DNA of 64,000 bases from Thermococcus radiotolerans (lineage in GTDB: Archaea; Methanobacteriota_B; Thermococci; Thermococcales; Thermococcaceae), in contig NZ_CP015106.1 in the NCBI RefSeq assembly GCF_002214565.1, positions 62,001 to 126,000 on the forward strand. Reading direction: 5' to 3'. The position numbers and the translations under genes were made by a program. Shown here in pieces: positions 3,376 through 61,044 of the stretch. The first letter of the stretch is position 1. Each line of letters begins with the position of its first letter. The notes beneath the pieces were generated by a model. It was not told where the DNA came from. It ran no database searches and saw only the letters and a program-made list of their open reading frames with translations.

Positions 3376-3420
3376 TGCGTTCTTTTTCATCTCTTATCTT
3401 CTTGCACTCGTTGGACGGTA

Positions 3421-3454
3421 TGCAGTACAAGGGTTTATAAAGGATTGTACTGTA
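3421..3454 (+). promoter_or_regulatory. Inverted repeat flanking the TATA box of the first DUF4143-type ATPase
   Basis: CAGTACAA (3423-3430) and TTGTACTG (3445-3452) are a perfect 8-bp inverted repeat with a 14-bp spacer, and the spacer contains the TATA box TTTATAA (3434-3440). The outer bases extend the symmetry (TGCAGTACAA against TTGTACTGTA). A protein bound here would cover the promoter. The half-site core TACAGTA recurs in the promoter of the second ATPase of this family at 59579-59633. Confidence 0.6.
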
Positions 3455-3472
3455 TATAGTCCACGATGAGTC

Positions 3473-4729
3473 ATGATTGAGAGAGAAACCTGGGCCGAGA
3501 TCGTTCTCGACTACCGTTCGCTTCCTTTCGAGGGGATAGAGAGGGAAATAGAGGTAAAAGTTCCCAACACCCAGATGGCTGTGGCAATAATCGGGCCGAG
3601 GAGAGTTGGCAAGACTTACCTCATGCGCCAGATTATTGAGGAACTTAGATCGGAGGGTGTCCCTGAGGAGAGCATCGCCTACGTAAACCTCGAAGATCCC
3701 AGGCTCGTTGGAGCTTCCCTTGAGGATTTGATGACCCTGCTCGAAGTCCTAAGGGAGATGGGCGGGGAAAAGCTCCACATCTTTCTCGACGAGGTCCAGG
3801 TAGCTGAGGGCTGGGAGCGCTTCGTCCGCTACCTCCTCGACACCGGTCATATGGTCTTTATTTCCGGCTCTTCTTCAAAGCTCCTCTCGAAGGAGATAGC
3901 GACCCAACTTAGAGGACGCTCCATAGCGGTTCGCGTTTTTCCCTTCTCGTTTCGGGAGGTTTTGAGGGCAAAGAGATTCCCGCTTAAGCGTTATCTTTCG
4001 AGTAGCGAGAAGGCGAGACTCAGGGTGCTCCTCGGGGAGTATCTCGAATGGGGAGGCTACCCCGAAGTCGTGCTGAACCCCCAAGTGAAAATTGAAGTCC
4101 TAAAGGGAATCCTTGACCTCGCAATATACCGCGACATCGTGGAGCGCTGGGAAGTCAGAAACGTCTCCGCTTTACGGCTGCTCCTGAAAGTCCTCGCCCG
4201 CTCAAGCCACATTACGCTCACCAAGGCCTACTCAACTATGAAAAGCCTCGGAATATCGATAGGCAAGGGGACTCTCTCTGATTACTTCGAATACTTGGGT
4301 GATGCTTTCATACTGCATCGCCTTCCTCCCTATGTGAAATCCTACAAGAAGGCCGAACTACTTGGCTTCAAGCCCTACCTTATTGATAACGGCCTCCTTC
4401 GTATTATGGGGGTCAAGGACAGAGGGAGGTTGCTCGAAAACCTTGTCATGGTCGAGCTTTTGAGGAGGGGCTTTGAGCCGGGAGAAGATCTGTTCTACGT
4501 CCCTGGAGATGGATGGGAGGTCGATTTCCTGGCTGGAGACGAGCTAATTCAAGTTAGCTATGAGCTCCATTCGCTCAACAGGGAGCGCGAGCTTGGGACA
4601 CTCCGGAAGGCTGAGAAGAAAATTGACGCTGAAAAGCTCACAGTCATAACTTTCACGGATAAAGAGAGCATTAAGCTGAACGAAAAGAGAATTGAGGTCA
4701 TCCCGCTCCACGAGTGGCTCCTTCGCTAA
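3473..4729 (+). CDS. P-loop ATPase, AAA_14/DUF4143 type (copy 1)
   Basis: A 418-residue protein with Walker A GPRRVGKT at 41-48, Walker B LHIFLDEVQ at 101-109, and a sensor-like ISGSSSKLLSKEIATQLRGR segment near 135. This is followed by a helical winged region and a C-terminal restriction-endonuclease-like part with VDFLAGDELIQVSYEL. That is the layout of the archaeal ATPases with AAA_14 and DUF4143 domains, whose role is unknown; such genes are often lineage-specific and mobile. The ATG is chosen because it follows a TATA box by about 33 nt. The promoter carries an inverted repeat. Its stop overlaps the convergent nucleotidyltransferase by 4 nt. A second, diverged copy lies at 58263-59579. 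Confidence 0.85.
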   Translation: MIERETWAEIVLDYRSLPFEGIEREIEVKVPNTQMAVAIIGPRRVGKTYLMRQIIEELRSEGVPEESIAYVNLEDPRLVGASLEDLMTLLEVLREMGGEKLHIFLDEVQVAEGWERFVRYLLDTGHMVFISGSSSKLLSKEIATQLRGRSIAVRVFPFSFREVLRAKRFPLKRYLSSSEKARLRVLLGEYLEWGGYPEVVLNPQVKIEVLKGILDLAIYRDIVERWEVRNVSALRLLLKVLARSSHITLTKAYSTMKSLGISIGKGTLSDYFEYLGDAFILHRLPPYVKSYKKAELLGFKPYLIDNGLLRIMGVKDRGRLLENLVMVELLRRGFEPGEDLFYVPGDGWEVDFLAGDELIQVSYELHSLNRERELGTLRKAEKKIDAEKLTVITFTDKESIKLNEKRIEVIPLHEWLLR

Positions 4730-5430
4730 ACCCCTCCGTGCTCCCTCACTTTTTTCCTGACGTTCGGGTCGCGGTCGGCTATCACCTTTAGGGCCTCCTC
4801 AAAGCTCATCCAGTCGGGAACTTCCTCGTTGATGTAGATTCCGGTTCTCCCGATGCTGTCCCTCCTCGTCAGGACGTGGACGCGCTCGGTAACGATGTCG
4901 ATGCTCACGCCGAGGATTTTTGCAACCTCACTCTCCCTTCCCACGACTTCCCTCTCGATGTGCCCCCTTTCGGTGGGGACTATGAGTATCAGCTTCTTGT
5001 TCACCCCGGGGACGCGCTGCCTGGTCTTCACGCCCCATGTGTCTATCATCCCGCCCCATCTGTAAAACTCAAGCTCCCTGTTCGTGGGCTCGATCAACGG
5101 GAAGGTGACCGTCGTTTCCTCGTCTATCTCGATGACGCCCTTGATGAGGTGCCACGGGGTTGCCATGACTATCTTCCTTCTGCTCACGAGTCCCTCAAGG
5201 GCGAGCTCGATGAGGTAGCTCGGCACCCGGTAGGGGATGAAGATGTCTATGTCGCTGTCCCGTCTGACGTCTCCCCTGGCGACACTACCGTAGAGCTGGG
5301 GGTCGAACTGGCCCAGTCTTTCCATTATTCCCAGCGCTTTCTCCCGCTTCTCCCAGAGGTAGCGCCACCTCTTCGGTGAATAGACAACCTCCCTCTCGTC
5401 CCAAACGCGAACAACCTTTTCCCTCGGCAT
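4726..5430 (-). CDS. Nucleotidyltransferase, DNA polymerase beta superfamily
   Basis: A 234-residue protein with the nucleotidyltransferase signature LYGSVARGDVRRDSDIDIF (about 46-64), that is GS-X10-DxD with both metal-binding aspartates present. The remainder is unfamiliar: a segment with TPWHLIKGVIEIDEETTVTFPLIEPTN and a C-terminal helical part that may bind nucleic acid. The substrate is unknown; relatives transfer a nucleotide to antibiotics, RNA or proteins. Unlike the MNT gene at 24724, no HEPN partner is next to it and it is longer than minimal MNT proteins. The ATG at 5430 is supported by divergence from the gene at 5512. Confidence 0.75.
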   Translation of the reverse strand: MPREKVVRVWDEREVVYSPKRWRYLWEKREKALGIMERLGQFDPQLYGSVARGDVRRDSDIDIFIPYRVPSYLIELALEGLVSRRKIVMATPWHLIKGVIEIDEETTVTFPLIEPTNRELEFYRWGGMIDTWGVKTRQRVPGVNKKLILIVPTERGHIEREVVGRESEVAKILGVSIDIVTERVHVLTRRDSIGRTGIYINEEVPDWMSFEEALKVIADRDPNVRKKVREHGGV

Positions 5431-57469: not shown

Positions 57470-58312
57470 ATGGAACTCAAAGAGACGCTGGAGGAGTACG
57501 AGACCTACCTCGACCTCGAGGGGAAGAGCCCGAACACGATTAGGATGTACTCCTACTACGTGGGGCGCTACCTCGAGTGGGGCGGAAAGCTCAACTCCCG
57601 CTCCGCCCTCCGTTTTCTCGCGAAATTGCGCCGGCAGGGTTACTCCAACAAGAGCCTCAACCTCGTGGTCCAGGCGCTGCGCTCCTACTTCCGCTTCGAG
57701 GGCTACGACGAGGAGGCTGAGAAGCTCAAGCCCCCGAAGGTTCCCAGGAGCCTGCCGAAGGCCCTAACCCGCGAGGAAGTTAGAAAGCTGCTCTCGGTGA
57801 TACCACCAACGAGAAGGCGCGACAGGCTGATATTTCTCCTCCTCTACGGTGCAGGTCTTCGGGTAAGCGAGCTGTGCAACCTGAAGAAATCCGACGTTGA
57901 CTTCGAGCGCTCGCTGATAGTCGTCCGCGGCGGTAAAGGGGCCAAGGACCGCGTCGTGCCCATTCCAGGATTCCTTCTGGAGGAGATCAAGTCCTACCTT
58001 GAGACGAGAACGGACTCCAGCGAGTACCTCATCGTCGAGGAGGGGCGCAGAGAAAAGGACAGGATATCGCCCAAGACCGTCTGGTATCTCCTCAAGAAAT
58101 ACGGGGAACGTGCGGGGGTCAAGGTTACACCCCACATGCTCCGCCACAGCTTTGCCACTCACATGCTCGAAAACGGCGTTGACATAAGGGCCATCCAGGA
58201 ACTCCTCGGCCACTCGAACCTCTCAACGACGCAGATCTACACCAAGGTCACCGTCGAGCACCTCAGGAAGGCCCAGGAGAAGGCGAGGCTGATAGAGGGG
58301 CTGATGGAGTGA
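57470..58312 (+). CDS. xerA: Tyrosine recombinase XerA
   Basis: A 280-residue integrase-fold protein: SAM-like N-domain ([20 protein letters not shown]), catalytic domain with Arg in [15 protein letters not shown], Lys in [23 protein letters not shown] (HxxR), [11 protein letters not shown] (His and nucleophilic Tyr). All catalytic residues are present. It resolves chromosome dimers at dif, as in Pyrococcus. No clear dif site is identified in the window. Its last 50 nt overlap the convergent ATPase gene. Confidence 0.96.
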
Positions 58313-59579
58313 GCCCGAGCAGGAACTTCCAGAGAGGAATGGCATTTATTCTGCGGCCGTTCATTTCAATGGTTTCCTCTTCCTCGAGTGTCACAACCGT
58401 GAGATTCTCGCAGCCGAGATTTTTGCCCGCTCTAATGATGGCAGATAGCTCCCGCTCTCGTGCGTCCTTGAGGCTCAGAGTCACCTGAATCAGTTCTACA
58501 ACCCTTCCTGACTCCGAGACGACGAAATCAACTTCCTTTTCACCGGAGCCGCCGTAGTAGTGAACGTTGAGAAGCGGGTTTAGATAGTGCTTCCTTCTGA
58601 GAAGCTCAAGGAACACGGCGTTTTCAATATCCCTTGCGGGGTCCTTCTTTGAGAAGAGGGCCAGGCCGGTATCGACGAGATAAACCTTCTTGGGGGCTCT
58701 GAGAGACTCTTTTTCGGAGCGGGCAAACTTTGGAAGGAAGAAGACGAAGAACGAATCCTCAAGTGCTCTGAGGTACTCAAGGACTGTCGTTTTTGATGTT
58801 CCAAACTCGGACTTAAGGAAGCGATGGATTGAGCTGTACGAGGTGTACTTTGCGTAGTTCGAAAGCAGAAGCTTGACAAGGGCCTCAATCAGGGCCACGT
58901 TCCTTATCCCGTGCCTCTCTACGACGTCCTTCGTGATCATAACCGAGAGGTACTCTTCAAGTATCCTGACCTTATCGCCGAGCAGGGCCACCTCGGGGAA
59001 GGCGCCGTATTTTAGGTACTCATCCAAGAGCTTTCTTATTATATGCATCTTTCTGCCGTAAAGGTCGCGCTTTTTAAAGTCCATCCCCTTGAATCGAAGG
59101 AACTCCCTGAACGAGAGGGGAAGGAGGGTATATGAAATTCCGCGTCCCCTCAGCTGGGTCGCAACCTCTCTTGAGAGCAACCGCGAGGACGAACCCGTAA
59201 CCGCAACCATGAAACCCTCGTCAAGCAAATATCTTACGCCGATTTCCCAGTTGGGAACGCTCTGAATCTCGTCGAGAAGGAAGAAGACCTCGTCCCCAAC
59301 GTTCTCAGGATAGAGGTCAAAGTATGCATCAACAACTCCCGGAAAGTCCCGTCCAGTTATCCCGAACAGGAGCGGGTTCTCAAAGTTCAGGTAAACGTAG
59401 CGTTCCCTCTCATCTCCAACTAGTGAATAGAGGAGATACGTCTTCCCGGAGCGCCTTGGCCCAATTATAACCGTCGCCTTTCCAGGGTTCAGGGAAAGCT
59501 TTAGCTCTCTCTCCACAATATTTGGTAAATCCCTCTCGTGGAAGAGGCGGATGTATCTTTTGATGTCGTCAGGCTCCAT
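58263..59579 (-). CDS. P-loop ATPase, AAA_14/DUF4143 type (copy 2)
   Basis: A 438-residue protein with Walker A GPRRSGKT at 40-47, Walker B FFLLDEIQ near 99-106, [20 protein letters not shown], and a C-terminal nuclease-like part with [20 protein letters not shown]. It shares the full architecture of copy 1 at 3473-4729. The ATG at 59579 is chosen because the TATA box (59601-59609) implies a leaderless start there; a 23-residue extension would cross it. The last residues [17 protein letters not shown] are coded antisense to xerA. Its promoter has an inverted repeat with the same core as copy 1. Confidence 0.85.
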
Positions 59580-59633
59580 GGTACAGTATACAATACCAAT
59601 ATTTATAAAGGTTTGGTACGCCATACTGTACCA
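59579..59633 (-). promoter_or_regulatory. Nested inverted repeats flanking the TATA box of the second DUF4143-type ATPase
   Basis: TGGTACAGTAT (59579-59589) and ATACTGTACCA (59623-59633) are perfect 11-bp inverted arms. Inside them TACCAA (59594-59599) and TTGGTA (59613-59618) make a second pair. The TATA box (minus strand TTTATAAAT, 59601-59609) lies at the centre, and the inner arm reaches the start codon. The half-site core TACAGTA is the same as at the first ATPase gene (3421-3454). Confidence 0.65.
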
Positions 59634-59644
59634 AAATTGGATAT

Positions 59645-61024
59645 TCAAAGCTCCCCCTTCTTCCTCAGCATCGCGAGGTAGCTCGTGAATGCTCCTGCGG
59701 AGATGGTGTCCCCCAGGCCGACGGTTGAGACGGGATTTCTGACGAGCCTCGTCGGGATTATAACGACCTTGTACTCCCTGGTCCTCAGGCGCCTCTTCGC
59801 CTCCTCAAAGCGAAGCTTCACGAACTCGCCGTACTCGTTGTATGGGACCTTCATGCCGACTTTTACCTCCTCCGGGCTCTTTATGTCCCCGAGGGAAGCC
59901 CTCGCCGCGGCCAGTGTTGTTGCGAGCTCAAGACTGCTCCTCAGCTCATCCTCGCTCAGCGGATTGTCCGAGTGGGTGATGTACATGATGTAGTAAATCG
60001 TGTGTATCTGGAGCACCTCGAGGTTCATCTCGTCAACGAGGATTTTGCCGCCCAACACGGTGTCCTCTATGCGGTTGTAGGTGAATATCCTCTCCGCGAG
60101 CTTGGAGTAGCCGAGGGCGTTGAGGACGTGGGCTATCTCTGCCTCGTCCATGCCGACGCTGTCCACCAGCGGAAAGAGGTTGTAGATGACCTTCTTTCTG
60201 AGCTCGCGATTCTGTATCGAGGCGAACTCCAGATGAACCCTAACGTCCTTCTCCCGCTTGAGCAGGAGTATGTCCTTTTTGGCCTCCCTTAGGTAGTGGT
60301 TCGCGTCCTTGCCGTCCGAATAGCGGAGCTTTATCCCCTGATAGCCTGACAGAATGGCCCCATCAACCTGGAGGCCTATCTCAGGTAAGAACCTCTTCAG
60401 CTCGGGCTCGGTGTGGATCCTTATGCTCTCGAAGCGAGCTGAGACGATGAACCTGCCCGAGAATGGAACCCGTATCGTCTCGTCACCAAGCCTGAAGGTC
60501 GTTCCGGCGCGGAACTCGAAGATGCGGTTCACCTTTATCGGGTCGCCCTCCCTGTAGGCCCCGCGTGGGTGTTTGAAGGCCAGCCTGCCATCCTCGATGA
60601 CCGGATAGAAGAGGTTGGGCTTTTCCACGAACATCTCGGCCTGCTTCCTAGCGAGGTGGGGGGTGTAGACTATCACCCGCCTGAAATCAAGGTTCGCGAG
60701 TAGGTTGGCTATGATTCCGGCCTGGCCGCCCATCCTCTCAACGTCGTATTTGAAGTGAGAATCGAACCATGTGTGAAGCTCCTCGTTGACGAGGGGGACT
60801 GCCATGGGCTTCCCGGTTTTGAGGGCGTGAACCAGCCTCGCGACGAAGTCGAGGGGCTCGTTTATCTCCCTAGGGTAATCGTCCATCCTTTTCCTGACCG
60901 TTTCGGCCCCAAATTCTTCTATGAGTGCCTGCACAATCTCCCCGTTGAGAAAGGTTATCGCATCGACGTTCGTGTTGTAGGCGGTGTAGATCGAAAGTCC
61001 CATGGCCTCCTCGAGGAGCCCCAT
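59645..61024 (-). CDS. pfkC: ADP-dependent phosphofructokinase
   Basis: A 459-residue ribokinase-fold enzyme: SIYTAYNTNVDAI, FKYDVERMGGQAGIIANLL, DGAILSGYQGIKLR, HLEFASIQNRELR and VSTVGLGDTISAGAF with the catalytic Asp in GLGDT. The sequence follows the ADP-PFK branch (YPREINEPLDF, ITHSDNPLSE) rather than ADP-glucokinase. It phosphorylates fructose-6-phosphate with ADP in the modified Embden-Meyerhof pathway. The TGM element just upstream fits glycolytic control. ATG 61024 follows GGGTGAT. Confidence 0.95.
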   Translation of the reverse strand: MGLLEEAMGLSIYTAYNTNVDAITFLNGEIVQALIEEFGAETVRKRMDDYPREINEPLDFVARLVHALKTGKPMAVPLVNEELHTWFDSHFKYDVERMGGQAGIIANLLANLDFRRVIVYTPHLARKQAEMFVEKPNLFYPVIEDGRLAFKHPRGAYREGDPIKVNRIFEFRAGTTFRLGDETIRVPFSGRFIVSARFESIRIHTEPELKRFLPEIGLQVDGAILSGYQGIKLRYSDGKDANHYLREAKKDILLLKREKDVRVHLEFASIQNRELRKKVIYNLFPLVDSVGMDEAEIAHVLNALGYSKLAERIFTYNRIEDTVLGGKILVDEMNLEVLQIHTIYYIMYITHSDNPLSEDELRSSLELATTLAAARASLGDIKSPEEVKVGMKVPYNEYGEFVKLRFEEAKRRLRTREYKVVIIPTRLVRNPVSTVGLGDTISAGAFTSYLAMLRKKGEL

Positions 61025-61027
61025 TTG

Positions 61028-61044
61028 TATCACCCTCAGTGACT
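61028..61044 (-). promoter_or_regulatory. Thermococcales glycolytic motif (TGM)
   Basis: On the plus strand TATCAC (61028-61033), CCTCA, GTGACT (61039-61044); the consensus is TATCAC-N5-GTGATA, so one arm is perfect and the other has two mismatches. It lies just downstream of the TATA box (minus CTTTTAAG near 61069-61076), where the regulator TrmBL1/Tgr represses glycolytic genes when sugars are absent. This is the expected place for pfkC. Confidence 0.8.

Follow-up and report, generated by a model that had tools for sequence, protein, structure and literature searches.

PDC-S01 has been described as a candidate phage defence family, encoded by a single gene with an ATPase and a PD-(D/E)XK domain, and is reported as the fourth commonest defence family across prokaryotes (PMC12988326). 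For most PDCs, experimental validation is pending (PMC12988326). In the open-access literature we found no experimental account of PDC-S01 function, no account of PDC-S01 regulation and no earlier report on DUF4143, AAA_14, SSO1545 or autoregulated Thermococcales ATPases. IniR is a mycobacterial signal-transduction ATPase with a DNA-binding domain and an ATPase domain modelled on SSO1545 (PMC5760070). Stf76 from the Sulfolobus plasmid-virus pSSVx is an archaeal winged-helix protein of 76 residues (PMC4027180). The 64-kb stretch of DNA analysed here (the window) carries two genes, copy 1 and copy 2, whose proteins share 39% identity and match the PDC-S01 profile over their full length (E 1.9e-95 and 2e-96). 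PF13173 and PF13635 (AAA_14 and DUF4143) score above the gathering score in both copies, with Walker A and B present. The family assignment in the preliminary description, DUF4143-type ATPases, is correct. By the PDC-S01 profile matches, both copies are members of a candidate antiviral defence family. The features of copy 1 are as follows.

3411..3430, no strand, site A of the copy 1 operator: TTGGACGGTATGCAGTACAA, arms of 6 and a spacer of 8, kept in L029-L036
3434..3441, plus strand, copy 1 TATA box: TTTATAAA, at the exact midpoint of sites A and B
3445..3464, no strand, site B of the copy 1 operator: TTGTACTGTATATAGTCCAC, covering the expected transcription start
3473..4729, plus strand, ATPase gene of copy 1: AAA_14 and DUF4143, 418 aa, PADLOC PDC-S01

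The copy 1 promoter reads TTGGACGGTATGCAGTACAA-ggg-TTTATAAA-gga-TTGTACTGTATATAGTCCAC, and the ATG follows 9 bases on. The centres of palindromes A and B lie 34 bp apart, with the TATA box midway. An inverted repeat around this TATA box had been noted before, and it is real: CAGTACAA and TTGTACTG form arms around TTTATAAA. Its parse has to be revised, as these arms are the right half-site of A and the left half-site of B, that is, the inner half-sites of two palindromes. TACAGTA, formerly taken as the core of the repeat, forms the core of neither site; it covers an arm plus part of the spacer. The window contains three occurrences versus 1.58 expected, and at least three are found in 19 of 100 shuffles; all three sit in the copy 1 and copy 2 promoters. 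At its 3' end, the copy 1 gene overlaps by 4 bases with a convergent PF01909 nucleotidyltransferase gene (4726-5430, minus strand).

Copy 2 repeats this layout of paired palindromes (~20-22 bp) as inverted repeats around the TATA box.

59613..59634, minus-strand reading, site A of the copy 2 operator: TTGGTACAGTATGGCGTACCAA
59602..59609, minus strand, copy 2 TATA box: at the midpoint of sites A and B, whose centres are separated by 35 bp
59578..59599, minus-strand reading, site B of the copy 2 operator: TTGGTATTGTATACTGTACCAT, sharing bases with the start codon
58263..59579, minus strand, ATPase gene of copy 2: AAA_14 and DUF4143, 438 aa

Here the order is TTGGTACAGTATGGCGTACCAA-acc-TTTATAAA-ta-TTGGTATTGTATACTGTACC-ATG. 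Symmetric sites thus flank the TATA box at both copies, as had been proposed. From the distance between TATA box and ATG a leaderless mRNA is predicted for copy 2, so that site B overlaps the start. Since the TATA box sits between the sites in both promoters, site A should not be transcribed and the mRNAs should be leaderless or nearly so. A structured leader RNA was discarded for the same reason, with site A placed outside the transcript. The operators of the two copies are related (14/22) and have GTAC-N-GTAT in common, so cross-talk between them may occur. The last ~17 residues of the copy 2 protein (58263-58312) are an antisense reading of the xerA 3' end. The analogy with toxin-antitoxin modules, which was also drawn in the preliminary description, is not supported: such a module requires two co-transcribed genes, toxin and antitoxin, and both ATPase genes stand alone without a partner, with upstream gaps of 97 bp and 65 bp and convergent downstream genes.

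Homologues were gathered from 94 Thermococcaceae genomes and their upstream DNA was retrieved, giving 142 AAA_14-DUF4143 promoters; 42 promoters, all from the 64-kb window, served as controls, and each promoter was scored against its own dinucleotide shuffles. The expectation that such repeats also occur upstream of other family members is borne out in these Thermococcaceae promoters. The paired-palindrome score reaches a mean z of 3.5 in the homologous promoters compared to 0.1 in the controls, and p<0.05 against their own shuffles is obtained for 101 of 142 homologous promoters and for 1 of 42 controls. Symmetry centred on the TATA region behaves similarly (mean z 2.8 versus 0.27). The Mann-Whitney p values of 1e-15 for paired palindromes and 1e-13 for TATA-centred symmetry overstate independence, because the promoters are related by descent, while the per-promoter shuffles are free of this problem. 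About one third of the single promoters miss p<0.05 in each statistic, in part because some clades have another geometry. This is the case for the clade L110-L133, in which a palindrome (e.g. TGTCCAGTATATTGGACA) is located between two TATA boxes.

When the promoters are ordered on the protein tree, the operator sequence is seen to change by clade. Copy 1 orthologues carry TTGKAC-N8-GTMCAA, a sister clade GGACTAT..ATAGTAC, another clade TGTTTTAT-N2-ATAAAACA and copy 2 orthologues TTGGTACNGTATNNYGTACCAA; further clades have TTGTGTATTANTAATACACAA, or GTTAAGTA..GAGGTAAA with its mirror, or still other operators. In 11 of 12 clades, the best match of site A is site B of its own clade (permutation p 5e-6, with representatives picked by eye). 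Two promoters, L299 and L293 (genomes G022 and G032), have a third palindrome, GGTACTGTGCGATGTACC, 34 bp farther upstream of site A. Outside this family of genomes, a Thermoplasmata MAG homologue with 48% identity keeps a copy 1-like operator pair, and a methanogen plasmid homologue (L248) has repeats 32 bp apart. Among bacterial plasmid homologues, one clear palindrome is found (L244); the others are unclear, and the bacterial cases as a whole are no more than suggestive.

The operators are specific for their genes. In the host genome (1.87 Mb, single contig), the copy 2 operator with up to 2 mismatches is found at its own promoter only. The exact copy 1 operator returns its own site A only; with one mismatch, its own site B and 7 other places are added, compared to 22 for the reversed-pattern control. 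Across the 94 genomes, an L166-type operator matches its own two sites only, and the copy 2-type operator gives 26 matches versus none for the reversed control, of which 19 lie at promoters of copy 2-type ATPases and 7 at the same locus without the gene. This gene specificity argues against a shared repressor, and the common repressor for both copies that had been suggested earlier is not upheld, as the operator differs per clade and a strict search returns the own promoter only. Within 1.5 kb of the gene, different subclades of the copy 1 lineage have no neighbouring gene family in common, and a neighbour acting as regulator was rejected on these grounds; inside a single subclade, the gene keeps a fixed place. 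The ATPase is the sole thing seen travelling with the operator. A 16-base pattern of the copy 2 operator hits 26 viral contigs, by our estimate about the chance level for so large a collection.

The protein itself offers a plausible DNA-binding element. In the AF2 model (pLDDT 93.4), the ATPase domain is joined by a predicted winged helix, placed in the DUF4143 part, and by a domain with a PD-(D/E)XK-like fold.

4163..4324, plus strand, predicted winged helix of copy 1: residues 231-284, recognition helix 265-277, from the AF2 model, with clade-specific residues
4421..4705, plus strand, PD-(D/E)XK-like domain of copy 1: residues 317-411, with E322, D351 and Q360, and S/T at 362 for the expected catalytic Lys

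The GPRRxGKT and LDE motifs are invariant, and positions 266, 269, 270 and 273 of the recognition helix are variable and clade-specific. Divergence of the helix or the winged helix predicts operator divergence better than that of the ATPase domain, weakly so (partial correlation 0.12-0.27), and the apparent covariation of operator and helix is weak after allowing for overall divergence. Among the closest solved structures found by Foldseek are Cdc6/Orc1 on origin DNA, SSO1545 and PABY2304. The order of elements in the third domain of the AF2 model is that of the PD-(D/E)XK core fold, alpha-beta-beta-beta-alpha-beta. The catalytic Asp/Glu-Gln/Lys set is incomplete: E322, D351 and Q360 are conserved, and S or T occupies position 362 in 91 of 93 sequences. 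With few exceptions, S/T thus replaces the catalytic Lys of the motif region (residues 322-362, 4436-4558) in the Thermococcaceae set. Nuclease cleavage by this domain is doubtful because of the S/T at the Lys position.

The locus of copy 2, ADP-GK-xerA (57470-61033), was surveyed by synteny and not by motif, and compared with its relatives (L256-L262, L294-L312). Thermococcus genomes hold the filled allele, the operator pair without the gene, a single site, a gene remnant, or neither. All 7 gene-free copy 2-type matches fall in the interval from ADP-GK to xerA. Gene-free pairs are found for example in G014, G025, G043, G051, G062 and G065, single-site alleles in G016 and G044, and decaying gene remnants in G019 and G056. 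On the ADP-GK tree, filled alleles are mixed in among unfilled ones. Unfilled alleles keep a spacing of 35-36 bp with both arms mostly intact, well above shuffles, and their site B core is mostly GCAC/GCAT instead of GTAT. A cassette would be expected to have a third site where the ATPase gene ends; one was looked for at this 3' end and not found. Gene loss does happen, as the remnants in two genomes demonstrate. An operator pair kept without its ATPase speaks against plain cis-autoregulation, which does not predict such pairs. The simplest account is that the gene was lost repeatedly and its operator decayed slowly, or that recombination spread the alleles. The operator pair may also be a target site at this locus.

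We conclude that each ATPase probably autoregulates through its own clade-specific operator, by winged-helix binding of the paired sites, repression and ATP-dependent release. The winged helix in the DUF4143 part would recognise the palindrome at A and B, on either side of the TATA box of its own gene, and both sites would be filled by two dimers or by a single higher oligomer. At site A, upstream of the TATA box and over the BRE, occupancy would block TBP/TFB; at site B, over the transcription start and start codon, it would block RNA polymerase. Negative autoregulation by these means would be tight. Binding or hydrolysis of ATP, perhaps when infection or the like is sensed, would then alter DNA affinity and lift repression. 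Autoregulation by the ATPase had been raised in the preliminary description as one option, and it gains support from sites that follow the ATPase gene rather than the genes next to it, from their specificity throughout the genome and from the predicted winged helix. Such a repressor needs a DNA-binding domain and a specific operator at its own promoter; the former is predicted by the model and the latter is found. It is the sites, their geometry, conservation and gene specificity and the predicted winged helix that carry this reading, and from them we infer ATPase binding, repression, the ATP switch and an inducing signal. On comparative grounds, autoregulation is well supported.

Chance symmetry has to be considered for any AT-rich archaeal promoter, as these often look palindromic around the TATA box. 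TTTATAAA is palindromic by itself, and the number of TACAGTA in the window is not unusual. The arms, however, lie outside the TATA box, the identity of A and B is clade-specific, and the 42 control promoters stay near z 0 against dinucleotide shuffles, so we regard chance as extremely improbable. A separate regulator encoded elsewhere, either a common repressor or one per paralogue, could bind the sites; this would fit the genomes that retain an operator pair with no ATPase gene, and the GTAC-N-GTAT shared by the operators of both copies. It is nevertheless unlikely, since operators vary by ATPase clade, the strict operator is absent from other promoters of the genome, a conserved neighbour gene is missing, and one unlinked co-evolving regulator would be needed for every ATPase.

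The gene-free pairs bear on two related readings. In one, a mobile ATPase gene uses the paired sites for attachment or homing, and their promoter role is secondary. This would account for a gene that is present or absent at one fixed chromosomal place, for filled and unfilled alleles scattered over the ADP-GK tree, for pairs kept without the gene and for the modelled PD-(D/E)XK-like fold. Against it stand the lack of a third site at the gene 3' end, the S/T at the catalytic Lys position, the decaying remnants as a sign that loss occurs, and the same layout as ordinary promoters in other clades at unrelated loci. We consider it quite improbable. In the other, the pair serves in its own right as the site that a selfish or defence gene recognises, with promoter function built upon it. 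As the ATPase gene is gained and lost at one fixed spot while the pair, with its 35-bp spacing, persists, the pair could mark a self-recognised locus in a homing- or attachment-like manner; we give this reading a low probability.

The gene-specific operator pairs provide a handle on PDC-S01: for each ATPase, the cognate DNA site is the predicted ligand and the promoter of its gene the readout, and several paralogues per genome represent natural ATPase-operator pairs of differing specificity. The window proteins resemble PDC-S01 in matching the profile and in combining an ATPase with a PD-(D/E)XK-like domain; they differ from the family as described in that their nuclease-like domain has S/T where a catalytic Lys would stand. 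IniR, which likewise combines ATPase and DNA-binding domains, regulates a promoter to which it binds. In contrast to the ATPases discussed here, it is an activator of another operon, iniBAC, uses another DNA-binding domain, and autoregulation is not mentioned in its description (PMC5760070). Stf76 binds two sites in its own promoter (PMC4027180) but is without an ATPase or nuclease-like domain. Cdc6/Orc1, the best Foldseek match by E-value, shares AAA+ and a winged helix that bind DNA sites, but these proteins are replication initiators, their TM-score is low (0.31) and a PD-(D/E)XK domain is absent. The PF01637 ATPases, SSO1545 and PABY2304, have a related ATPase and winged-helix architecture. 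They form a separate Pfam family, and their palindromes extend from downstream of the TATA box into the first codons instead of flanking the TATA box. PF01637 genes L007-L013 and L216-L243 carry gene-specific palindromes, e.g. ACTTATGCCCCCGTAAGTTACTTACGGTGGCGTAAGTG in L240. In Thermococcus, 19 of 26 PF01637 genes have significant gene-specific symmetry at the transcription start and start codon (mean z 3.7 over the 26 genes versus 0.0 for controls). A shared regulatory habit thus seems to link AAA_14-DUF4143 with PF01637, both of them uncharacterised families of archaeal ATPases.
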